The notes under the pieces were generated by a model. It saw only the letters and a list, made by a program, of their open reading frames with translations. It was not told where the DNA came from and searched no databases. Positions 24,028-33,293 of a DNA stretch of 64,000 nucleotides are shown here, piece after piece. Each line of letters begins with the position of its first letter. Position 1 is the stretch's first letter. The DNA is from Prevotella sp. (GTDB taxonomy: Bacteria; Bacteroidota; Bacteroidia; Bacteroidales; Bacteroidaceae): positions 1 through 64,000 of the forward strand of contig JAFTGH010000017.1 of NCBI GenBank assembly GCA_017458005.1. Reading direction: 5' to 3'. The position numbers and the translations under genes were made by a program.

Positions 24028-26241
24028 CTAATTGCCTTTTGTGATACCACCCACGACATCATCGTTCTCAATGGTGCGCTCTGCTTTCTTGACGGATGCC
24101 TTGAGGGAGCCGAAGCGGTAACTGACAGAGATGGCAAACTGCCTGCCACGGTTATAGGACGTGCTAAGGTCACGGAAGTCGCCGTTGACGGCTTCGTTAC
24201 AGTATTTGGTATAGTGGTCGAAGGGGTCGTCGGTCATGAGCCGTACCGTCAGGCGGTCGTCTTTCAGGAACGAGCGTTGCAGCGAGGCGTAATAACCATA
24301 CCACGAGTGCTGCATATAATAGACATTGGAGGGGTTGTGTCCTATCTTACCATACGCGCTGAGCGACAGTTGCAGTCGCCATGGCAGTTTCTGTGTGAGG
24401 TTGACATAGTAGTTGTCAGACCATCCGAAGGTACGATAGCCGAGATTGGGATTCTCATAGTGCTCATAGCGTGCCGTATTGTTGAAGACAAGGGTCGTGG
24501 TCTCGAAAGGCCGCCATTGCACATACTGCTCGAAGGTGGCACGTCGGTAACGCTGGATATTGTCGTAGGTCAAGTAGCGTACATCACCATCTGCTGTCTG
24601 GACAGAGGCAATACCACCATTACTGAACTGATAGCCTGGAGCCAGTTGAAGGGTTAATCGCTTGCCCACAAACATATAGATGAGGTTGACACGCTGGGAG
24701 TGGGAACTGACCAACTCCGGGTTACCGCTTTGTATGATAGTCGGTGAGACGATAACGGCAGGATTCAAGTAGGAGATACCAGGACGGTTGATGCTGGTGG
24801 TGTAGTTCAGTTTCAGCGACTGCGCATCGGTTATCTGGTATTTCAGACTCGCCTGCGGTACCCAGTCGCTCAACCGGTGTCGGAACGTCTCACCACTACC
24901 ATCTGGATAACAGCCTTTCATAAAACTATACTCATAGCGCAGTCCCGCACGAGCCGACCATTTATCCTTGTTATAGATATAGTCCGCATAGCCAGCCATG
25001 ACACGGGTGGTATGCTCAAACTCACTGTTGGTCTCTGGCAGCACATCGCCATAACTTTGGGTGTTATGGCTGTTGTTATGACGGTCGATATACTTGGCTC
25101 CCAACTCTAGTTGATGTCCCTTGCCCAGAGGGCGCAACCAGTCGATCTGGAAGGTATGCTCCGTAAACCGCTCCCGCTCCTTCTGGAGTGAGTTCGTGTA
25201 AGGGAAGGGGGCGTCCATGAGGTCGGTATACTCATTCTCCTGATCCGTATGTTGACGCGTCAGGGCGAGCATGTAAGAGAGTGTAAACAACTCGCCCTCT
25301 CGACGCGTCTTATGCTCGAAGTCCAGTCGTCCGTTCCATGACTGATGACTGTAACCCGGCATCCAATAGTGGTTGTTATAACGATAGAGGGATCCCCTCC
25401 CATCCTCCCCTGTCGAGGGGAGAAGTTCTGTGGTTCCATCACCCTGTACGTTCAGTTTATAGAAATAGCCGCCAAACGAGGCAGACAGCAGGTTGAGGGA
25501 ATCGATATCATAACTGGCATTGATATCCCCGAAATGGATGCTGCCAGGGTTAGTCCCTTCTGAGTGGGTAAGCAGTCGATTACCAGTCTGGAGAAAGGTT
25601 CGCTCCACGTCATTGCTACTTTCCGTCTCGCGTCTCGACATGCCTCCATAGCCATAGTTGGCTGATAGCAATAACTTGCCCACCTGTCCTGTCAAGGAGG
25701 TGTAGAGGTTAGGGTGATTCAAGGAATTGTAATAGAGGTTGACGACTCCAGTCACACCATCGAACTTCGAGCCATCCACCATCACGATATTCAGGATAGC
25801 GTCTACCCCCTCGGCATCCTCACGGGCACCAGGGTCAGTGATGACCTCTATACGCTTCACCATCGAGGCAGGCATCGACTTGAATATCTCCTTGGCGTTC
25901 TTCGACAGGTTGGGGTCGTAGTGTCCGTTCTTATAGATTTTGAAGTTGCTGTTTCCCTTTACCTTGATGTTATCATCGCCGTCGACCGTCACCATCGGCA
26001 CCTTGCGGAGCATGTCCATCACCGTCTGTGTCTTCGACTCCTCGTCGGCCTGCACATCATAGCCGATACGGTCAATCTCCTGTTTGATGAGTTGCCGTTG
26101 TGCCTTCACCTCGATACCCTCCAGTTCCTGGTCCCAGGTAATGGAGTCGTTCTCCACTCTCAGACTGTCGGTCTGAGCCATAACAGTCCCTGCTTTCACT
26201 GCCATTAGGAGTGAAAGGCATACTAATTTGCCATATTTCAT
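24028..26241 (-). CDS. TonB-receptor-like outer membrane beta-barrel protein
   Basis: A 737-residue outer membrane protein with a signal peptide ending VMAQ. Residues about 45-155 are plug-like (VMDMLRKVPMVTVDGDD, MVKRIEVITDPGARED), followed by a long barrel typical of the OMP_b-brl family (PF14905-like). It is the last gene of the ECF sigma operon and may be its main target. No TonB-dependent substrate can be assigned. A palindromic hairpin sequence (25405-25422) is inserted in frame and encodes part of a loop (LLPSTGEDGRGSL). It starts 6 bp after the preceding gene. Confidence 0.85.
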   Translation of the reverse strand: MKYGKLVCLSLLMAVKAGTVMAQTDSLRVENDSITWDQELEGIEVKAQRQLIKQEIDRIGYDVQADEESKTQTVMDMLRKVPMVTVDGDDNIKVKGNSNFKIYKNGHYDPNLSKNAKEIFKSMPASMVKRIEVITDPGAREDAEGVDAILNIVMVDGSKFDGVTGVVNLYYNSLNHPNLYTSLTGQVGKLLLSANYGYGGMSRRETESSNDVERTFLQTGNRLLTHSEGTNPGSIHFGDINASYDIDSLNLLSASFGGYFYKLNVQGDGTTELLPSTGEDGRGSLYRYNNHYWMPGYSHQSWNGRLDFEHKTRREGELFTLSYMLALTRQHTDQENEYTDLMDAPFPYTNSLQKERERFTEHTFQIDWLRPLGKGHQLELGAKYIDRHNNSHNTQSYGDVLPETNSEFEHTTRVMAGYADYIYNKDKWSARAGLRYEYSFMKGCYPDGSGETFRHRLSDWVPQASLKYQITDAQSLKLNYTTSINRPGISYLNPAVIVSPTIIQSGNPELVSSHSQRVNLIYMFVGKRLTLQLAPGYQFSNGGIASVQTADGDVRYLTYDNIQRYRRATFEQYVQWRPFETTTLVFNNTARYEHYENPNLGYRTFGWSDNYYVNLTQKLPWRLQLSLSAYGKIGHNPSNVYYMQHSWYGYYASLQRSFLKDDRLTVRLMTDDPFDHYTKYCNEAVNGDFRDLSTSYNRGRQFAISVSYRFGSLKASVKKAERTIENDDVVGGITKGN
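25405..25422. repeat. In-frame palindrome in the outer membrane barrel gene
   Basis: CTCCCCT at 25405-25411 and AGGGGAG at 25416-25422 form a 7-bp hairpin around GTCG. The C/G-run flanks (CCCCTCCCATC) differ from the surrounding codon use. The encoded residues lie in a predicted barrel loop, where insertion is likely tolerated. Confidence 0.6.
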
Positions 26242-26247
26242 ATCTTC

Positions 26248-27102
26248 TTATTTCTTGAGTCGTTCGACGCTCATGTCGAATAACTGCTGGATAAACTCAT
26301 CTTTTGTTTTCTTCTTCAGTTTCAGGATCTCTGTCGCCACCATGTTCTTCTCCACGTCCTCCAACGACTGGGCATCCTTACAAAGTCGGTAGATTTCCGT
26401 AGCATAACTATTTGCCGCATTGCCGTCAGGGTTTTTCAGGAAGTGGTTCTTGTAGGTATTGAACTCCGTGAGCCATATCTCCGAACTTTTCTCATTCATA
26501 TTGAAACTGAAACCATTGCCCAAACCCTCAAGTACCTGCATCGTATTGCCATTGATACTAATCGTTCGCCTCTGTGTGGTCTTGCCTTGTCGAAATTTCA
26601 GTGTCGTCGCATAGGTCTTGACGATACGCCCTCTTATCTTATTGCCGTCCTCCGCCCACTCCAAGGCATAAGCATAACGGTGCTGGCGCAGTGAGTCGTT
26701 GGGATCGAGGAAACAGGCGTAAATCCATTTCGAGCCTTTTATCAGTCCGATGGCAACACCTCCTTTATTATTGTCGCCCACGGCAAGTGAGACGAAATCC
26801 TCGCTATTGCCTTTCGACCCTGTACTGACACTATAGGCATTAGCCTCGTCCTGATCGAAGGCTTTCCTGATGTCATTTATCAGTCGCTTATCCCGATTAT
26901 CTGTGAGTTCAAAATCGTAGGTGTCTTCCAATCCTTCCATCCTTCCTGAGTCAGGATCCTTCTCCATACTGTGTCTTGAACTTACTTCTTTGATGTTACT
27001 CTTCCTCAAGGCATCGAAAGCCTGTTGGATGTGTTGCTGTGCAAGGACTGCCGAGGGCAGTAGCATCAGCAAACCTGCGATAAGGATGTTTTTACTCTTC
27101 AT
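26248..27102 (-). CDS. Secreted protein of the ECF operon (DUF5024-like)
   Basis: A 284-residue protein with a signal peptide (MKSKNILIAGLLMLLPSAVLAQ). The ATG at 27102 is inside the end of the anti-sigma gene (11 bp overlap); the frame is open to 27132, but the extra residues spoil the signal. It resembles small secreted Bacteroidales proteins of the DUF5024 type (HIQQAFDALRKSN, a VGDNNKGGVAIGLIKGS region), though this family call is from memory. Its place between anti-sigma factor and barrel suggests an envelope job, perhaps sensing. Charged C terminus (VERLKK). Confidence 0.62.
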   Translation of the reverse strand: MKSKNILIAGLLMLLPSAVLAQQHIQQAFDALRKSNIKEVSSRHSMEKDPDSGRMEGLEDTYDFELTDNRDKRLINDIRKAFDQDEANAYSVSTGSKGNSEDFVSLAVGDNNKGGVAIGLIKGSKWIYACFLDPNDSLRQHRYAYALEWAEDGNKIRGRIVKTYATTLKFRQGKTTQRRTISINGNTMQVLEGLGNGFSFNMNEKSSEIWLTEFNTYKNHFLKNPDGNAANSYATEIYRLCKDAQSLEDVEKNMVATEILKLKKKTKDEFIQQLFDMSVERLKK

Positions 27103-27709
27103 ATGCGAAATATTCTTCTGGTTCATCAACATAAATAATCGTTCCGTCTTCCAACATCACAGGCACAAAACCTGCTGCTGTCAACTGCACACGAGTAATC
27201 TCCTGTCGTGCCTGCTCTATCTGTTGCTTGACAGCCTGTTGCTCTTGCTCCACCTCCGCCATCAGCGTATATGCCTTGTCGTAATCGTGGATGGTTGGCT
27301 CAGGCTTGCGGATGCGTGGTCGCCTTGGTTTGACAGGCTGCTGCCTCTGTAAGGCTGTGGTGTCGGGTAAAGGTTGCTCGTTGGGTGCCTCCGGACGTAA
27401 CACCGTGGTTGTGTCAGCCTTTGCAGTCAGGGTGGGATTCTGCTGGGCAGGTTGCCATAACATGGCAACAGACAGGACAGCCGTTCCTACTACGGCGGCA
27501 GCGGCACTCCAGCCCAGCCAGCGTCTCTTTGCCTTCTTAGGTCTCATGCCCTCTATCTCCGCAAACAACAGGCGATATTCCTTCCATTCCTCAGGCACGT
27601 TACCTTGAGTGAAGTACTGGTTAAGGACGTCCTCCTCCTCCAGTGTCGTCGTGCCGTCCATAAACTTGGTCAGCAGACTTTGGATATATTCCTTGGTGTA
27701 TTGTCTCAT
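27092..27709 (-). CDS. Membrane anti-sigma-like protein
   Basis: A 205-residue single-pass protein. The cytoplasmic N-terminal part (1-62) resembles the sigma-binding domain of small anti-sigma factors (QSLLTKFMDGTTTLEEEDVL). One membrane segment follows a basic stretch (KKAKRRW) at about 66-85. The periplasmic part is Thr/Pro/Gln-rich with a coiled-coil-like segment (VEQEQQAVKQQIEQARQEI). It overlaps the sigma factor gene by 4 bp, so it very likely binds and holds that sigma factor at the membrane. Confidence 0.72.
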   Translation of the reverse strand: MRQYTKEYIQSLLTKFMDGTTTLEEEDVLNQYFTQGNVPEEWKEYRLLFAEIEGMRPKKAKRRWLGWSAAAAVVGTAVLSVAMLWQPAQQNPTLTAKADTTTVLRPEAPNEQPLPDTTALQRQQPVKPRRPRIRKPEPTIHDYDKAYTLMAEVEQEQQAVKQQIEQARQEITRVQLTAAGFVPVMLEDGTIIYVDEPEEYFAYEE

Positions 27710-28200
27710 ATCTGATATCTCTTTTTGATGTCTTCTAATAATGCCTTTCTTGCTCTTGCCAGCAGGGTACTGACGGACGACACCTTGATGTCCAGCAAGC
27801 GGGCTATCTCCTCATGGCTGCGCCGTTCCACCTGTCGCATATATAATAAGGTACGTTGTGTGGTGGGCAGTTGCCCCAGTTTCTTTGTCAGCCATTCCTC
27901 ATTCTCTTTTGTTTCCAGCAGTTCCTGAGGACTCTCTGTCAACAGTGTCACGGTCTCCTCTTTCAGGGGTTCCATCGACCGTCGTCGTTGGTGGTTTCTT
28001 ACCAGATGTCGTGTCATCAGTGCCACCAGAGCCTCAACGGAATGGTATTTCTCCAGTTCATCGCGCATCTGCCACAGGTGGAGCATCACATCCTGTGCGA
28101 TGTCCTCTGCCTCCTCATTGCCCGCTCCACAGCGATGTCCTACGCTCAGAGACAACAGATGCCATGTGCGGGCTTTTTGTTCAAATGCGCTTTTGTCCAT
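27706..28200 (-). CDS. ECF-type RNA polymerase sigma factor
   Basis: A 164-residue sigma-70-like ECF factor. Region 2 is at about 10-75 (EAEDIAQDVMLHLWQ) and region 4 at about 105-160 (LPTTQRTLLYMRQVERRSHEEIARLL, then VSTLLARARKALLEDI). It heads an operon with anti-sigma factor, secreted protein and outer membrane barrel, which points to envelope sensing. Its promoter (28284-28315) is of the primary sigma type, and a 20-bp operator-like site is just upstream at 28324-28343. A palindrome lies in the 5' leader at 28245-28265. Confidence 0.88.
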   Translation of the reverse strand: MDKSAFEQKARTWHLLSLSVGHRCGAGNEEAEDIAQDVMLHLWQMRDELEKYHSVEALVALMTRHLVRNHQRRRSMEPLKEETVTLLTESPQELLETKENEEWLTKKLGQLPTTQRTLLYMRQVERRSHEEIARLLDIKVSSVSTLLARARKALLEDIKKRYQI

Positions 28201-28244
28201 TCTTTCAGATCTGCCTTACACTATTATAACACTTAAGGTGTCGA

Positions 28245-28265
28245 ATACTAAACTAGTTTTAGTAT
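28245..28265. promoter_or_regulatory. Palindrome in the ECF operon leader
   Basis: ATACTAAA and TTTAGTAT arms surround a CTAG-containing centre, between the promoter and the sigma factor start. It could be an operator for repression or an ECF autoregulation site; which one cannot be told. Confidence 0.4.
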
Positions 28266-28283
28266 ACCTTAACAATTCGCTCG

Positions 28284-28315
28284 CAAAAGTAGGAAGATTT
28301 CTCAATACTCTCAAA
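28284..28315 (-). promoter_or_regulatory. Promoter of the ECF sigma operon
   Basis: Read on the minus strand: TTTG (28315-28312), 20 bp, TACTTTTG (28291-28284). It fits the consensus fully. The leader to the ATG at 28200 is about 80 nt. Confidence 0.7.
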
Positions 28316-28323
28316 GATAAAGA

Positions 28324-28343
28324 CTGACATTTGTCTGACAATT
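28324..28343 (-). promoter_or_regulatory. Operator-like site, copy 1
   Basis: On the minus strand this reads AATTGTCAGACAAATGTCAG, identical over 20 bp to the site at 29299-29318. It holds two TGTCAG half-sites 11 bp apart, the usual layout of PhoB/OmpR-type binding sites. It ends 8 bp upstream of the -33 element of the ECF operon promoter and overlaps the stop codon of the 28342 gene. Confidence 0.7.
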
Positions 28344-28806
28344 AATAATTATCAAGTATCTGCTTCAGTTTCTCACGCTCGCGTTCTTTCTTTGACTTGC
28401 GATGTGGGAGGATCTTGCTGAGGACATAACCGATGAGAGATAGCGGATTAACACCTATCATCATGGCTCCCCCTTGCTGCTCCTTGCGTTGTTCCTCCAA
28501 CCAATGACTCTGGTAGGCAAGTTGCATCTCTGTCTTGAATGCCGGTGTCATGATATTAATGGAGACTTCAGGGTGCTTTGGCTTCAGTTCTGACGGTGGG
28601 ACAATAGGCATTTGCGGCATCATGGGCGCTACCGTCAGACTGTCAGAGGAAGACTTTTGAGGCTCATTGCGTAGCCATTCCTCATAGTCGTTCCTCAATG
28701 AGTCTTGCCGCAGGCGGTGCTTGTCATCGTCAGACACTTGCGCATGGCATGTCGTAGTCATCAGCAACAGGACGAAAGGCAATATATAAATAAGGTGATG
28801 AACCAT
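28342..28806 (-). CDS. Hypothetical exported protein beside the regulator
   Basis: A 154-residue protein I do not recognise. It has a signal peptide (LIYILPFVLLLMTTTCHAQ), a charged and Pro-rich middle, and near the C terminus a hydrophobic stretch (about 115-133, GGAMMIGVNPLSLIGYVL) followed by a very basic tail (HRKSKKEREREKLK). The tail could be an inner-membrane anchor with a cytoplasmic end, or lie on a membrane surface. It starts right after the stop of the RprY-like gene, so the two are cotranscribed. A link in signalling is inference. Confidence 0.62.
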   Translation of the reverse strand: MVHHLIYILPFVLLLMTTTCHAQVSDDDKHRLRQDSLRNDYEEWLRNEPQKSSSDSLTVAPMMPQMPIVPPSELKPKHPEVSINIMTPAFKTEMQLAYQSHWLEEQRKEQQGGAMMIGVNPLSLIGYVLSKILPHRKSKKEREREKLKQILDNY

Positions 28807-29121
28807 TCAAAACTGTATCAAGCGATAGCCGAGCCCCCGTGCATTGATAATTTTAAGGGATGGGTCGGCAGAAAGAATATGTTTCATACGTGACATGAAA
28901 ACATACAATGAATTAAGGTTATACACATTATCATCATCCCAAAACTCAAGGAGAAGGATGTGGTTCTCCACGATGTCACCATGAGCCTCTATCAGCATGC
29001 CAAGGATAGAAGCCTCACGAAACGATAATTTCCTAGAGGACGATGCCCCATCTGGAGCATGATACGATAGTTCCTGCTTCTGAACGTTTAACTCAAAACG
29101 TCCGATTTTCAAAATGTCCAT
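28807..29121 (-). CDS. Receiverless RprY-like winged-helix DNA-binding protein
   Basis: A 104-residue protein that is only an OmpR/PhoB-type DNA-binding domain. The pattern (LSFREASILGMLIE, then a block ending FWDDDNVYNLNSLYVF, and IINARGLGYRLIQF) closely recalls the C-terminal half of Bacteroides response regulators such as RprY. No receiver domain is encoded upstream, and the gene has its own -7 element (29162-29169), so this is a complete small regulator rather than a frameshifted one. Identical PhoB-like operator sites lie on both sides of this gene (28324-28343, 29299-29318) and are the natural candidates for its targets. How it is controlled without phosphorylation is unknown. Confidence 0.75.
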   Translation of the reverse strand: MDILKIGRFELNVQKQELSYHAPDGASSSRKLSFREASILGMLIEAHGDIVENHILLLEFWDDDNVYNLNSLYVFMSRMKHILSADPSLKIINARGLGYRLIQF

Positions 29122-29161
29122 AACTTTGCGTTACTTTTTATCAGTATTTGGATTGACGGCG

Positions 29162-29169
29162 CAAAGTTA
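29162..29169 (-). promoter_or_regulatory. -7 element of the RprY-like gene
   Basis: Minus-strand TAACTTTG, 40 bp upstream of the ATG at 29121. There is no clear -33 element at 19-21 bp, which fits a promoter that needs an activator. Confidence 0.6.
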
Positions 29170-29200
29170 TAGTGAATAAACAAAATAAGCAGGCAGATTT

Positions 29201-29220
29201 ACCTTACAAAACCTTACAGA
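29201..29220. repeat. 10-bp direct repeat upstream of the RprY-like gene
   Basis: ACCTTACAAA is followed at once by ACCTTACAGA. It begins 31 bp upstream of the -7 element, the same place as the 20-bp operator sites at the neighbouring promoters, but the sequence is different. It may be the binding site of another regulator. Reverse complement TGTAAGG resembles the repeats at 97-134. Confidence 0.5.
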
Positions 29221-29298
29221 TGATTAAATTAAGGCTTTCTTAAAGTATTTTTGGTTTAAAAATCTTTCATCAGAATAATAAAGATTAACGGAATCATG

Positions 29299-29318
29299 AA
29301 TTGTCAGACAAATGTCAG
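29299..29318 (+). promoter_or_regulatory. Operator-like site, copy 2
   Basis: The sequence AATTGTCAGACAAATGTCAG is identical to copy 1 at 28324-28343 on the other strand. TGTCAG half-sites are at 29302-29307 and 29313-29318. It ends 33 bp before the -7 element at 29352, against 32 bp for copy 1. The rest of the 29122-29373 gap holds only promoters and A/T-rich sequence. Confidence 0.7.
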
Positions 29319-29329
29319 GATAATCATCC

Positions 29330-29359
29330 TTGTCTTATTTCATTGTTTTCCTATCTTTG
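29330..29359 (+). promoter_or_regulatory. Promoter of the 29374 gene
   Basis: TTG at 29330-29332, 19 bp, TATCTTTG at 29352-29359, followed by the ATG at 29374. The operator-like copy 2 lies 11 bp upstream of the -33 element. Confidence 0.65.
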
Positions 29360-29373
29360 CATGAAAAACAAAG

Positions 29374-29925
29374 ATGGGAATCAAACAATTTACTTTGCTG
29401 GCACTCTTGTTGATTGTCATAGGAACGATAGTCGTTTTGTGGGAAGAGAAGGAGGAGTTACCCACCTTCCCTGAAAAATTGGAGGAGGCGATGAGATATG
29501 GGCGCATGAAAACCTATCACCAACCTTATTATGACTATGAGGTGAGATTTCCCGCATTCTTTGAGCAGGTGCCAGACTCCCTGATCGACGGAGAAGGTAC
29601 CTGTTTGTTCCGTTGTGGAAATGTAGAGTTGTCGGCACAGGTCATTCCTAATAGCGACAGCCTCAGTGTTCAAAACGGAATGCAATATTTCGCTACTCTC
29701 CATCATGCAGAACAGCAACAATCAGACAGCCAATCCTTCATTCTGTCTGGTCAACTATATATGAATGACAGCCCCATTCCTAACTATCGTTTCTATGCCA
29801 AGTATGTTTGCCATCGCAAATTCTGGTTCGTACAGACACTCACCTATCCCGACAATTGTGCCAAAGCCGTAGAACGCCTTGTCCAACAAATCAACAACTG
29901 GACAGTGTGGGAAAACCCTATATAA
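29374..29925 (+). CDS. Hypothetical membrane-anchored protein
   Basis: A 183-residue protein of unknown function. One N-terminal hydrophobic segment (IKQFTLLALLLIVIGTIVVLW) acts as anchor or signal, and the rest is probably periplasmic: YDYEVRFPAFFEQVPDSLIDGEG, then a mixed alpha/beta domain with an aromatic C terminus (VCHRKFWFVQTLTYPD). Such short proteins resemble domains that measure envelope load, but no family can be named. Its promoter carries operator copy 2, so it is probably controlled together with the ECF operon. Confidence 0.65.
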   Translation: MGIKQFTLLALLLIVIGTIVVLWEEKEELPTFPEKLEEAMRYGRMKTYHQPYYDYEVRFPAFFEQVPDSLIDGEGTCLFRCGNVELSAQVIPNSDSLSVQNGMQYFATLHHAEQQQSDSQSFILSGQLYMNDSPIPNYRFYAKYVCHRKFWFVQTLTYPDNCAKAVERLVQQINNWTVWENPI

Positions 29926-29970
29926 AGTTAAATCGTGCAAACAGATGAGTGTTGTATCAGGCAAAAGCAG

Positions 29971-29978
29971 TACTTTTG
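29971..29978 (+). promoter_or_regulatory. -7 element before the MutS-like gene
   Basis: TACTTTTG ends only 6 bp before the ATG at 29985. The transcript would start at or next to this codon, so a leaderless message or a later start is possible. Confidence 0.45.
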
Positions 29979-29984
29979 TACACG

Positions 29985-31787
29985 ATGAATGACCATCTTA
30001 GTACTCATTATACCGATCAGATATCATCAACAAAGGCAGAGATACTACGGTTAAGGCAACGAGGGAAAAATTTCCTGGTCGCTTCATTGGCAACGTTTTC
30101 TTTCCTCATTGTCACAATTGTCATCTACACGATATGGAAAGAAGTATGGTTTCTGGGGCTTGCGTTCCTCATGCTGTTGGCATATATCTTGGTTCGCCAA
30201 ATGGACATTCATAACTCAACAAGTATCAAGGAAAAAGAGAACTTGCGTAGTGTTTATGAGAAGGAACTGGCATATATTCACGGTGACTTCTCTTGCTTCT
30301 CTGCTGGTGAGAATTACCTGAATCCTCACCATGAATATGCGCTTGATTTGGACATCTTTGGATCGCAATCCTTGTTTCAGCGTATGAATCGAACGGTGAC
30401 AACAGGGGGGAGTGACTTACTTGCCAGTGAACTCACAAAGACACAAATACGGACAATCTACGAAATAGAGACACAACGTGATGCCATTCGTGAATTGACA
30501 GAACACCAAGAACTATGTACACGATTTAAAACACATGGGCAACAGAAGATTATAGACACCCAACATATCATGGAGGCACTGTTGGCAATCCGGCAAATAA
30601 CGATTCCTCGTTTTGCCAACAAGAATTGGTCATTAGCAGTTGTCATGATGATGCTAACAGGATTGGGCGTTTCCATTATTCTCGCTTTCATAGGCAAGAT
30701 TGCCATCTCATTACCAATATGGTGGGCTTTGGTGCAATTTGTAGTTGCCTATTCTATTTGCTCAAAACCTTTGCGACTTATCAATAAGATAGTCAATCAA
30801 CTACATCATCAGATACAAGCATACATCAGTCTGATTACCATCATCTCCTCTTCCAACCTGCAAAGCAAAGGAAATGTATCTCTGATACATCGACTAACAG
30901 GCAATAACCATCACGCTTTGGCTTCATTTAAAGAACTCAAAAGACTCCTTGATGACATCGATCGTCGTGGTAATGAGTTATGGGCATTTTTTTCTAATGC
31001 TCTTTTCATGAGCGATTTCTTCATCATTCGACGTTATCTGCATTGGCAGGATTCTTATTTGATGGAGGTGGAGAAATGGATTGATGCTGTCAGCCATTTT
31101 GACGCATTAGTCTCTATGGCAACTTTCCGATATAATGAGCCAGAAGCCGTGGAGGCAGAGTTTGTGGAGGAGGACAAGGTCGTCTATTCCGCCAAAGGGC
31201 TTTACCATCCATTCTTGGGTGCTAAGGCTATACGCAACCATTTTCAAATAGAGGATCATCATTATTATATTATAACAGGTGCTAATATGGCGGGTAAAAG
31301 CACTTTCTTACGTGCAATTGGCATCAACTATATTTTAGCCTGCTGTGGGTTACCTGTTTTCGCAGAGCAACTGACCGTGTCTGTCTTTTCTATCTTTAGT
31401 AGTATGCGGACCAACGATGATCTTGCTCATGGTGTCAGTTTCTTTAACGCTGAACTTTTGCGACTTCAACAACTGATCACCACATGCCGTAACAATCACC
31501 ATACCCTTATTATCTTGGATGAGATCCTCAAGGGAACCAACTCTCTCGATAAGTTGAACGGCTCACGCCTTTTCTTAAAGTCTATTGCCTCGTTGCCAAT
31601 CACTGGCATTGTCGCTACCCATGATTTGGAACTGTCAAAGATGCAAGAGGAATACCCAGACCGCTTCCATAATTATTGTTTCGAGATTCAACTCTCAGAA
31701 CATATCCATTATTCATACCGTATCACAGAAGGAGTTGCCCGCAATCAGAATGCCACCTACCTACTGAAAAAGATTCTAAACCAATGA
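29985..31787 (+). CDS. Membrane-bound MutS-like ATPase
   Basis: A 600-residue protein with the ABC-type ATPase domain of the MutS family: Walker A ITGANMAGKSTFLRAIG at about residue 430, the MutS helix motif SSMRTNDDLAHGVSFFNAELLR, Walker B HTLIILDEILKGTNS and the switch IVATHDLELS. It lacks the mismatch-reading N-terminal domain (no Phe-x-Glu motif). Instead it has two pairs of membrane helices (about 31-70 and 205-255). The lever/clamp region lies between them and the ATPase. The role is unknown, but it is unlikely to be normal mismatch repair. It leads a tightly spaced operon (gaps 7, 11 and 6 bp) with an outer membrane protein and a membrane regulator. The frame is open to 29949. Confidence 0.8.
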   Translation: MNDHLSTHYTDQISSTKAEILRLRQRGKNFLVASLATFSFLIVTIVIYTIWKEVWFLGLAFLMLLAYILVRQMDIHNSTSIKEKENLRSVYEKELAYIHGDFSCFSAGENYLNPHHEYALDLDIFGSQSLFQRMNRTVTTGGSDLLASELTKTQIRTIYEIETQRDAIRELTEHQELCTRFKTHGQQKIIDTQHIMEALLAIRQITIPRFANKNWSLAVVMMMLTGLGVSIILAFIGKIAISLPIWWALVQFVVAYSICSKPLRLINKIVNQLHHQIQAYISLITIISSSNLQSKGNVSLIHRLTGNNHHALASFKELKRLLDDIDRRGNELWAFFSNALFMSDFFIIRRYLHWQDSYLMEVEKWIDAVSHFDALVSMATFRYNEPEAVEAEFVEEDKVVYSAKGLYHPFLGAKAIRNHFQIEDHHYYIITGANMAGKSTFLRAIGINYILACCGLPVFAEQLTVSVFSIFSSMRTNDDLAHGVSFFNAELLRLQQLITTCRNNHHTLIILDEILKGTNSLDKLNGSRLFLKSIASLPITGIVATHDLELSKMQEEYPDRFHNYCFEIQLSEHIHYSYRITEGVARNQNATYLLKKILNQ

Positions 31788-31794
31788 CTCGCCT

Positions 31795-32610
31795 ATGAAC
31801 ATCAAACACATATCCTTCATGATACTCCTTTTACCACTGTTGCCAATCAATATGATGGCACAGGTGGAGATAGGCGGTTCACAGGTACCAGATAAAGTGA
31901 TGGATGTGATACCGACGGATATGAATAATCATTTCCTCATGGACTCTCTTCGTTTCCAGACAGATGTCATGCAGCCCCAACTGTCAATTCCCAAGGAACC
32001 ACAGGTGGTAAGTTATACCCATCAAATCAAACAAGGAGGCACAGGACTGAATCTTTGGAAAGGTGCCTCTTTGGGATTCTATGGGTCGACTAGTCAGATG
32101 CCTGGACTGATGAATACAGAAACAGGCATGATGATGCTCAACCAATATACAGGACGATGGCATTTCACAGTCTCTGCCCAAGCCAATAAATACTGGATGC
32201 CTTGGCAAAGGACTCTTGCAACACAATACGGCTTTGGAGGAATGGTAGGTTATCATCTTAGTGAGGCGGTTTCTCTTCATGCCTTTGGATATTATTATGC
32301 TAATCAAATGCAAGTAGGACCAGCCATGAGTCCGTATGTAAACAATACGACGTATGGCGGTTATGCTGATATCCGTTTCAATAAGACCTTTGGAACTCAT
32401 GTGGGGGTACGCCGTTATGTCAACCCTATGAACGGCAAATGGACGACAGAGCCCATCGTCAACCCATATATCAAAATAGGAGACTCTAAATTGGAGTTCC
32501 CCCTTGGCGGTCTGCTGAAGGCTCTAGTCTGGGGCGATCGGGACAACCCGATGCGCTATCAGCCCCGTCCACAAACACCCAATCAACCTGTTCGAAGAAT
32601 CAGAAGATAA
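31795..32610 (+). CDS. Putative outer membrane protein of the MutS-like operon
   Basis: A 271-residue exported protein with a signal peptide (about 1-22, ending MMAQ). From about residue 85 it shows alternating beta strands with aromatic ends (LWKGASLGFYGS, RWHFTVSAQANKYWMPW, SLHAFGYYYANQMQ, YGGYADIRFNKTF), as in a small beta-barrel. The C terminus is Pro/Arg-rich (RPQTPNQPVRRIRR), so the last strand is not at the very end. Family unknown. It starts 7 bp after the MutS-like stop and precedes the membrane regulator. Confidence 0.65.
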   Translation: MNIKHISFMILLLPLLPINMMAQVEIGGSQVPDKVMDVIPTDMNNHFLMDSLRFQTDVMQPQLSIPKEPQVVSYTHQIKQGGTGLNLWKGASLGFYGSTSQMPGLMNTETGMMMLNQYTGRWHFTVSAQANKYWMPWQRTLATQYGFGGMVGYHLSEAVSLHAFGYYYANQMQVGPAMSPYVNNTTYGGYADIRFNKTFGTHVGVRRYVNPMNGKWTTEPIVNPYIKIGDSKLEFPLGGLLKALVWGDRDNPMRYQPRPQTPNQPVRRIRR

Positions 32611-32621
32611 ATCATCATTAT

Positions 32622-33293
32622 ATGAAACACCATTATGTCATTGTGCTTTTTGCACTCATCGTAACTTCCAGTATGGTTAGTTTTACAAGTTATAGGGCAA
32701 CGGAACACGAAGTGAATGAGGACATGAACCAGGCGCTTGCCCTGGCACTGGAGGAACAGCAGTCGGATGTCATTAGCGCTGACACGATACAAGTGTTCAA
32801 CAGGAGCCTTCGTATGGAGGCGTTAAAAGGAAAGGCAATGCTTGCGGTGGACACCCGACTGGGCTTCCGCCCTCGTCCCCAATGCTCGATGGCTACTATC
32901 CTCGCTTTGTCTGATCAGCGTCCTGCCATGATCTTGTGGATGATAACCTTGCTGTGGGGTACGTTCTGTCTATGGCAGCGAAGAAAGCATTTGCCCTTGG
33001 AGTGTGGCTATGGCGGATTAATGTATGCTGAAGACGACAGGCGTTTCTATGATGCGCAAGGTGAGCAAGTGAAATTGACTCCGATGCAACTGCAACTGAT
33101 GGAGATGTTCTGGCAATCTCCCTCGCATCTTCTGACAAAAACAGAGATATGTAACACCTTGTGGCCTAAGAAAGATGATGCTAACGAGACGCTCTATACC
33201 CTTATCAGAAGACTGAAGCCCGTCATAGAGCAACATTCTGAATTGAGGATAGAGTCAGACAGAGGTCGTGCCTATGAACTGAAAGTCAAGTGA
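32622..33293 (+). CDS. Transmembrane winged-helix transcription regulator
   Basis: A 223-residue protein with a ToxR/CadC-like idea in reverse order. Membrane segments lie at about 5-22 and 101-118 and bound a short periplasmic part (23-100). The cytoplasmic C-terminal domain (130-223) is an OmpR/PhoB-type winged helix (KLTPMQLQLMEMFW, LLTKTEICNTLWP, then a block ending TLYTLIRRLKPVIE, and a wing ending GRAYELKVK). It could sense the periplasm and bind DNA while still in the membrane. The operon with the outer membrane protein and MutS-like ATPase suggests one envelope signalling unit. No kinase or receiver gene lies nearby. Confidence 0.75.
   Translation: MKHHYVIVLFALIVTSSMVSFTSYRATEHEVNEDMNQALALALEEQQSDVISADTIQVFNRSLRMEALKGKAMLAVDTRLGFRPRPQCSMATILALSDQRPAMILWMITLLWGTFCLWQRRKHLPLECGYGGLMYAEDDRRFYDAQGEQVKLTPMQLQLMEMFWQSPSHLLTKTEICNTLWPKKDDANETLYTLIRRLKPVIEQHSELRIESDRGRAYELKVK

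Follow-up and report, generated by a model that had tools for sequence, protein, structure and literature searches.

The window analysed here, a stretch of 64,000 nucleotides from Prevotella sp. (assembly GCA_017458005.1, contig JAFTGH010000017.1, positions 1 to 64,000), raises the question of which protein reads two identical 20-bp sequences that lie at two promoters with the gene of a small DNA-binding protein between them. The sequence AATTGTCAGACAAATGTCAG was found exactly at 28324-28343 on the minus strand and at 29299-29318 on the plus strand. These were the only two matches in the window at up to three mismatches, against 0.01 expected (100 shuffles), and the pair is not a chance repeat. 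Both copies contain TGTCAG-N5-TGTCAG, with half-site starts spaced 11 bp apart. The predicted operators and promoter elements are as follows:

28324-28343, minus strand: operator 1, assigned to the ECF sigma operon (exact 20-mer)
28312-28315, minus strand: -33-like TTTG of the predicted ECF promoter (from sequence), 8 bp past operator 1
28284-28291, minus strand: -7 element TACTTTTG of the predicted ECF promoter (from sequence), starting 32 bp past operator 1
29299-29318, plus strand: operator 2, assigned to the gene row p183-MutS-like-p271-TMreg (exact 20-mer)
29329-29332, plus strand: weak -33-like CTTG of the predicted p183 promoter, 10 bp past operator 2
29352-29359, plus strand: -7 element TATCTTTG of the predicted p183 promoter (from sequence), starting 33 bp past operator 2

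The consensus of the -7 site is TANNTTTGY (PMC12632263); in the ECF promoter the -7 element is separated from TTTG by a 20-bp spacer. The 20-mer of operator 1 overlaps the stop codon of the ORF 28342-28806 by 2 bp. Judged by these elements, both 20-mers are predicted to be operator-promoter units with a Bacteroidota-type promoter. An earlier sequence-only reading of the window had described the two identical copies, the 11-bp spacing of their half-sites and their service to the ECF sigma operon and the gene at 29374; the copies and their spacing were confirmed, and the third description agrees with a predicted promoter of matching geometry at each site. The spacing that it gave for the promoter elements, 8-11 bp to the -33 and 32-33 bp to the -7, agrees with the -7 boxes at 32 and 33 bp and the -33 elements at 8 and 10 bp, the "-33" of p183 being imperfect.

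The genes of the two rows were annotated as follows:

29374-29925, plus strand: p183, small, with a hydrophobic segment at the N-terminus; the first gene past operator 2 (ORF, hydropathy)
29949-31787, plus strand: MutS-like ATPase lying between p183 and p271 and containing hydrophobic segments (MutS_V 6.5e-25, hydropathy)
31795-32610, plus strand: p271, probably exported (ORF with an N-terminal hydrophobic segment)
32622-33293, plus strand: TMreg, 223 aa, proposed reader of both operators (Trans_reg_C 2.7e-10; linkage, co-occurrence, hydropathy)
27706-28200, minus strand: ECF sigma factor of the PG0214/GFO_1088 family (NF058625, 131.9 bits, NCBIfam cut-off 130)
27092-27709, minus strand: putative membrane anti-sigma factor of 205 aa (from gene position and a single hydrophobic segment)
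26248-27132, minus strand: p294, probably exported, in the ECF operon (ORF; order conserved in several loci)
24028-26241, minus strand: outer-membrane beta-barrel, TonB-receptor-like, last of the ECF operon (OMP_b-brl_3 1.1e-68)

The putative anti-sigma factor matched no family above cut-off in the Pfam and NCBIfam profile searches. In the ECF mRNA, the predicted 5' untranslated region (window 28200-28280, minus strand) folds into a long hairpin of -14.4 kcal/mol (82 nt folded, start codon included).

TMreg is our own name for the protein encoded at 32622-33293 and its homologues. The predicted layout consists of a first transmembrane helix (TM1), a periplasmic part, a second transmembrane helix (TM2) and a C-terminal PhoB-type winged helix, the Trans_reg_C match (40.6 bits, cut-off 26.2) covering residues 147-219 of 223. 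The membrane helices were assigned from hydropathy alone. TM1 is clear, with a mean Kyte-Doolittle value of 2.45 (17 residues, 44 homologues), and TM2 is moderate, with a mean of 1.78 and a minimum of 1.45 (17 residues, measured in 43 of the 44 homologues); over 19 residues, TM2 of the window TMreg falls below the 1.5 cut-off. Among the Pfam matches up to E 1, no receiver or kinase domain was detected in TMreg, and its conserved small periplasmic part had no Pfam match. At E 1e-20, TMreg is single-copy in its own genome and present in 231 of 398 genus genomes. ToxR and CadC carry an N-terminal winged helix followed by a transmembrane segment and a periplasmic domain. TMreg differs from them in having the winged helix C-terminal, behind two predicted membrane helices, and with the domain at residues 147-219 the N-terminal winged helix of ToxR/CadC-like proteins is absent. 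According to PMC10269533, the transmembrane transcription regulators (TTRs) (ToxR, CadC and TcpP) are a known class, rich in Bacteroidota; like TMreg, they are one-component proteins with a membrane segment and a DNA-binding domain in one chain. TMreg fits this class in three features, namely a DNA-binding domain, a predicted membrane segment and the lack of a receiver or kinase. The word Prevotella is absent from the main text of PMC10269533.

The operators of the window's own clade lie 3.3 and 4.3 kb from TMreg, so their assignment to this protein rests on relatives. An 18-mer of the operator, at up to two mismatches, gave 67 matches in 37 of 119 related genomes, 36 of own genus (reversed control, 12 matches in 11), and in many of these loci a TMreg homologue ends just ahead of the operator. 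Named genomes were scanned with TMreg alignment A1 (22 sequences), and the best 80 of 441 coding places were used; they form 79 loci (numbered with L below, genomes with G), which belong by title to Prevotella, Prevotellaceae, Xylanibacter, Bacteroidaceae or Bacteroidales. A same-strand TGTCAG-N5-TGTCAG was found up to 300 bp past the stop codon in 59 of these best 80 TMreg ORFs, which came from 78 of the 79 loci (one lost by the non-overlap rule), compared with 11 of 546 further ORFs (150 aa or longer). Both the opposite strand and the reversed motif gave 0. The operator commonly stands 9 or 20 bp past the TMreg stop. Two units occur there in 31 of the 59 cases, overlapping to give three half-sites, and 35 such triples were counted in the 79 loci. 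Among the 21 ORFs without an operator at this place are those of the own clade (L163-L167), where it is upstream of p183; for the others, it was located elsewhere in the locus or was not seen. L165 (strain tf2-5) shares the layout of the window, and in L173 (strain tc2-28) the operator comes directly after TMreg. In an earlier, partly overlapping set of 45 TMregs, 28 had the operator with at most one mismatch in the 12 half-site bases, 1 had it with two mismatches, 5 had TGTAAG-type repeats (one imperfect), and 11 had no repeat near.

The promoter geometry of the window recurs in the relatives. Past 79 distinct operators from the 79 loci, the -7 motif TAnnTTYG was found at 32 bp in 63 cases, at 33 bp in 12, at 31 bp in 1 and at 43 bp in 2, so that 76 of 79 operators have it at 31-33 bp; the background rate is 0.0006 per position. 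The operator of L225 has a match at 4 bp only; at 22 others, a match at that distance is present in addition. The gene following the operator was p183 (26), a TMEM260-like gene (19), OMP700 (18), the ECF sigma gene (10), OMPb3 (3) or p271 (1), and none was found in 2 cases. The TMEM260-like proteins are O-mannosyltransferase homologues (PF11028), and OMP700 is our name for a roughly 700-aa protein that has no Pfam match, its barrel nature being a guess. Apart from the sigma factor, the targets look like envelope proteins. TMEM260-like genes were seen behind the operator in L114, L115, L129, L130, L132-L134 and others, and also after TGTAAG-type TMregs (judged by the sequence start).

Operator and TMreg also occur together at the genome level. 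The operator (17-mer, at most one mismatch) was detected in 181 of the 398 genus genomes and the reversed 17-mer in 6. Both operator and TMreg were present in 169 genomes, the operator only in 12, TMreg only in 62 and neither in 155 (odds ratio 35, Fisher p 2e-43, with shared descent ignored). The mismatched genomes, 62 of the 231 with TMreg that have no near-perfect operator and 12 of the 181 with the operator that have no TMreg at E 1e-20, are perhaps partly due to incomplete assemblies. In G013 and G038, the two operator-only genomes inspected, the operator precedes the -7 element of an OMP700 gene by 32 bp, and from this geometry the site may work there with its regulator missed or lost. 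In G032, which has one TMreg, three operators on other contigs lead OMP700-like, TMEM260-like and OMP700-like genes with the -7 at 32-33 bp, as expected for a trans-acting regulator. A search of 374 genomes from the order detected TMreg (E 1e-15) in 8: two belong to the own genus, and the other 6 include one from the own family. Of the five readable loci outside the genus, three (L266, L268 and L269) keep TGTCAG-N5-TGTCAG with the -7 at 32-33 bp; no operator was seen behind TMreg in L267 and L270, and L272 was unreadable by the helix pattern. Several TMreg paralogues per genome stand beside the same operator in G025, G028 and others, which raises the question of crosstalk.

From the sites, their promoter geometry, linkage and co-occurrence, together with the half-site covariation and cassette-free operators described below, all read from sequence, both 20-mers are very probably activator operators of TMreg, which would drive both the ECF sigma operon and the p183 operon to which its own gene belongs. 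In the mechanism that we infer, a periplasmic signal would lead TMreg to bind the two TGTCAG half-sites head to tail, and bound TMreg would recruit the housekeeping sigma factor at the -33/-7 promoter, with the -7 box 32-33 bp on. Operator 2 would drive p183-(MutS-like)-p271-TMreg, through which TMreg would raise its own level, and operator 1 would drive the ECF operon with its sigma factor, putative anti-sigma factor, exported protein and outer-membrane barrel. The operator stands right after TMreg in most of the relatives compared (59 of 80 TMreg ORFs); in this lineage the p183 and ECF parts are divergent, each with an identical operator. The best reading of the targets here is a small envelope regulon, and they weakly suggest that the signal is the state of the envelope or of surface glycans.

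The half-sites lie head to tail on one helix face (11 bp), the operator is just upstream of the -33, and according to PMC3973317 the PhoB transactivation loop faces sigma region 4 in the complex with pho box DNA; TMreg is therefore taken as a probable activator contacting the housekeeping sigma factor. That TMreg reads the sites as a repressor is unlikely, compatible as repression is with evidence of this kind: the operator lies upstream of the -33 and does not overlap the promoter, and the near-fixed 32-33 bp to the -7 suits a sigma-contacting activator.

The gene between the operators belongs to a two-gene cassette with the following features:

28807-29121, minus strand: 104-aa receiverless RprY-like DNA-binding protein (Trans_reg_C 1.4e-10)
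28342-28806, minus strand: p154, probably exported, after the 104-aa gene (adjacent in all 8 genomes with a 104-aa orthologue)
29202-29218, minus strand: TGTAAGGTTTTGTAAGG, candidate operator for the gene of the 104-aa protein (repeat present ahead of 8 orthologues, both half-sites being exact in 7)
29162-29169, minus strand: -7 element TAACTTTG of the predicted 104-aa gene promoter, 32 bp past the 17-mer and 33 bp past the last TGTAAG

The description of this protein as an RprY-like DNA-binding domain agrees with its Trans_reg_C match. It matched the DNA-binding part of NF051850 (RprY), profile positions 133-227 only, and it differs from RprY in its score of 58.4 bits against an NCBIfam equivalog cut-off of 370, in its own TGTAAG repeat and in the lack of a receiver domain with a phospho-acceptor, the open frame being 107 aa. 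Orthologues at E 1e-30 were found in 8 of the 398 genus genomes. The cassette lies between both operators in four of them (own, G035, G218 and G353). In G440, it is located about 1.7 kb downstream of an operator leading ORFs like p183 (30%) and p271 (73%); in G190 and G240, it lies a few kb from the ECF operon, with no exact operator within the 16 kb examined; in G292, it stands among other genes (6.8 kb examined). In 7 of the 8 genomes the cassette thus has p183, p271 or ECF homologues nearby, an association that may reflect a functional tie; it does not always have the operator nearby. The operator is present somewhere in 7 of the 8 genomes; in G190, both operator and TMreg were absent at the thresholds used.

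In L163 and L164, which lack the cassette at this place, the two operators share a single divergent promoter region, their starts separated by 47 bp, and the only matches to the 104-aa protein in these genomes (completeness not given) were of full RprY length with 32-35% identity. In the tree of 44 TMregs, L163 pairs with L164 (98/86); the pair falls in a well-supported clade of six rows (99/95), beside the cassette-bearing L165 and L166, whose own grouping is weak (91/0). Loss of the cassette with both operators retained appears the simplest reading for L163 and L164.

The repeat TGTAAG-N4-TGTAAG upstream of the 8 orthologues is exact in 7 and has CGTAAG as its first half in G292, and the -7 motif follows at 33 bp in 6 and at 32 bp in 2. 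In the own genome, one site was found at up to two mismatches (minus strand, 29202-29218), the same number as with the reversed control. With the sequence SLYVFMSRMK, the recognition helix of this protein carries the Phe/Ser combination seen in TGTAAG readers. The 104-aa gene is probably autoregulated via its own repeat, and the cassette that it forms with p154 between the operators would most likely read that repeat. A second conserved block, AAAAATA-TTTAAGAAAG..TTA.TTTAA, was seen upstream of the TGTAAG repeat at about 29220-29260 (minus strand) in most of the 8 orthologues. Upstream of full-length rprY, no TGTAAG repeats were found in 10 loci of 23 (L010-L032), one of which, L020, is a wrong-frame ORF, and the accessible parts of PMC6032018 and PMC3646045 contained no RprY consensus.

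The sequence-only reading had taken the 104-aa protein as the activator that binds both 20-mers and activates both promoters. Its claim of one activator with a small local regulon stands, in line with the two promoters, their equal geometry and the PhoB-type direct repeats; the choice of the 104-aa protein as that activator is very improbable. The protein has a PhoB-type DNA-binding domain and is encoded between the sites, and with the operator in 7 of its 8 genomes and a shared neighbourhood in 7 of 8, binding of the 20-mer is unlikely rather than impossible. However, the operator occurs in 181 genomes and the protein in 8, G190 has the protein without operator or TMreg, L163 and L164 retain both operators without the protein, and its own promoter bears the other repeat, matching a helix pair of TGTAAG readers.

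The reading by TMreg is further addressed by its recognition helix. Among 127 distinct ORFs with the TMreg helix pattern, for which an exact repeat was sought within 300 bp, Phe plus Cys or Ser at the positions aligned with PhoB 198 and 200 was found in 11, of which 10 had TGTAAG-N5-TGTAAG and 1 had no exact repeat. The ORFs with TGTCAG carried other pairs in 81 of 81 cases (Leu-Arg 66, Leu-Lys 9, Leu-Ser 4, Leu-His 1 and Phe-Lys 1), and 36 of the 127 had no exact repeat within 300 bp (35 outside the Phe plus Cys/Ser group). The half-site thus appears to change together with the TMreg recognition helix. The two-position code is post hoc, and the TGTAAG TMregs look like one clade with a shared helix, so the covariation may be a single event. 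The helix numbering follows the PhoB sequence, and the alignment to it uses residues named in PMC3264566 and PMC3973317; in the latter, the guanine-bonding PhoB residue is Arg201, not Arg200. A one-residue code at the PhoB Arg200 position (Arg/Lys versus Cys/Ser) was refuted by L260-L263, which have Ser with TGTCAG.

We tentatively propose, with slightly less than even confidence, that two dialects exist: membrane-anchored TMregs would read TGTCAG repeats, and a group of TMregs and, independently, the receiverless 104-aa protein would read TGTAAG, the choice being set mainly by Phe plus Cys/Ser at PhoB 198/200. Both dialects are present in one 250-bp intergenic region of the window with the same 32-33 bp to the -7, which would leave two local regulators insulated despite their related DNA-binding domains.

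A soluble response regulator, PhoB or full-length RprY, might instead read the sites as Pho-type boxes: the direct TGTCA repeats, spaced at 11 bp, are similar to the half-site TGTCA(T/C) given for PhoB in PMC3264566, and the Trans_reg_C winged helices are of the PhoB type. We consider this highly unlikely, since only these two of the 15 TGTCA-N6-TGTCA sites in the own genome have TAnnTTYG within 60 bp (the 13 others have no -7 box within that distance), and since the motif tracks TMreg, which, unlike PhoB, has no receiver and has a predicted membrane anchor.

The conservation of the two sites was compared in six loci chosen by TMreg similarity (own and L163-L167). The 17-mer cores are exact at both positions in all of them (12 of 12). 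Between species, the operator flanks have 42-46% identity upstream and 60-72% downstream, and the flanks of the two copies within one locus have 11-43%. Exact cores with diverged flanks argue for selection and against recent duplication. The genome scan at up to three mismatches that had been proposed with the sequence-only reading covered 3,052,525 bases (3.05 Mb, stated 92% complete) and returned the two window copies only, with 0 for the reversed-pattern control, in disagreement with a dispersed repeat. Two exact copies in one place might suggest a recent duplication or a repeat that is dispersed or mobile; this reading is rejected given only two copies in the genome, their promoter context and mutually unrelated flanks, and cores exact in six loci with diverged flanks. 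In these loci, p271 is kept ahead of TMreg in L163, L165 and L166. No MutS-like ATPase is listed in L163-L167 at the place that it has in the window; a homologue of it (56%) precedes TMreg in L240.

The ECF family of the PorXY-SigP cascade of Porphyromonas gingivalis presumably differs from the ECF family here. As described in PMC4800418, that cascade likewise has a regulator above an ECF sigma gene, but it is a two-component system, whereas a one-component membrane regulator is proposed here. In the literature searched, which mostly excluded subscription journals, no account was found of the operator, the regulon, a C-terminal winged helix behind two membrane helices or the TGTCAG/TGTAAG split. 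The present reading would provide a membrane-bound family, found in more than half of the genus genomes sampled, with its target site, promoter geometry and regulon. The proposed regulon comprises OMP700 proteins, TMEM260-like O-mannosyltransferase homologues, p183 and the ECF sigma operon. It yields testable predictions on how a membrane-anchored factor may feed an ECF sigma cascade in rumen Prevotella, and the covariation of half-site and helix offers natural material for testing PhoB-type specificity. A TMreg homologue (34%) was also found at 193-1116 of L273 (MT835691.1), a record from human faeces titled "UNVERIFIED: Bacteriophage sp."; it has no operator directly behind it, and the record may be a mislabelled bacterial contig.
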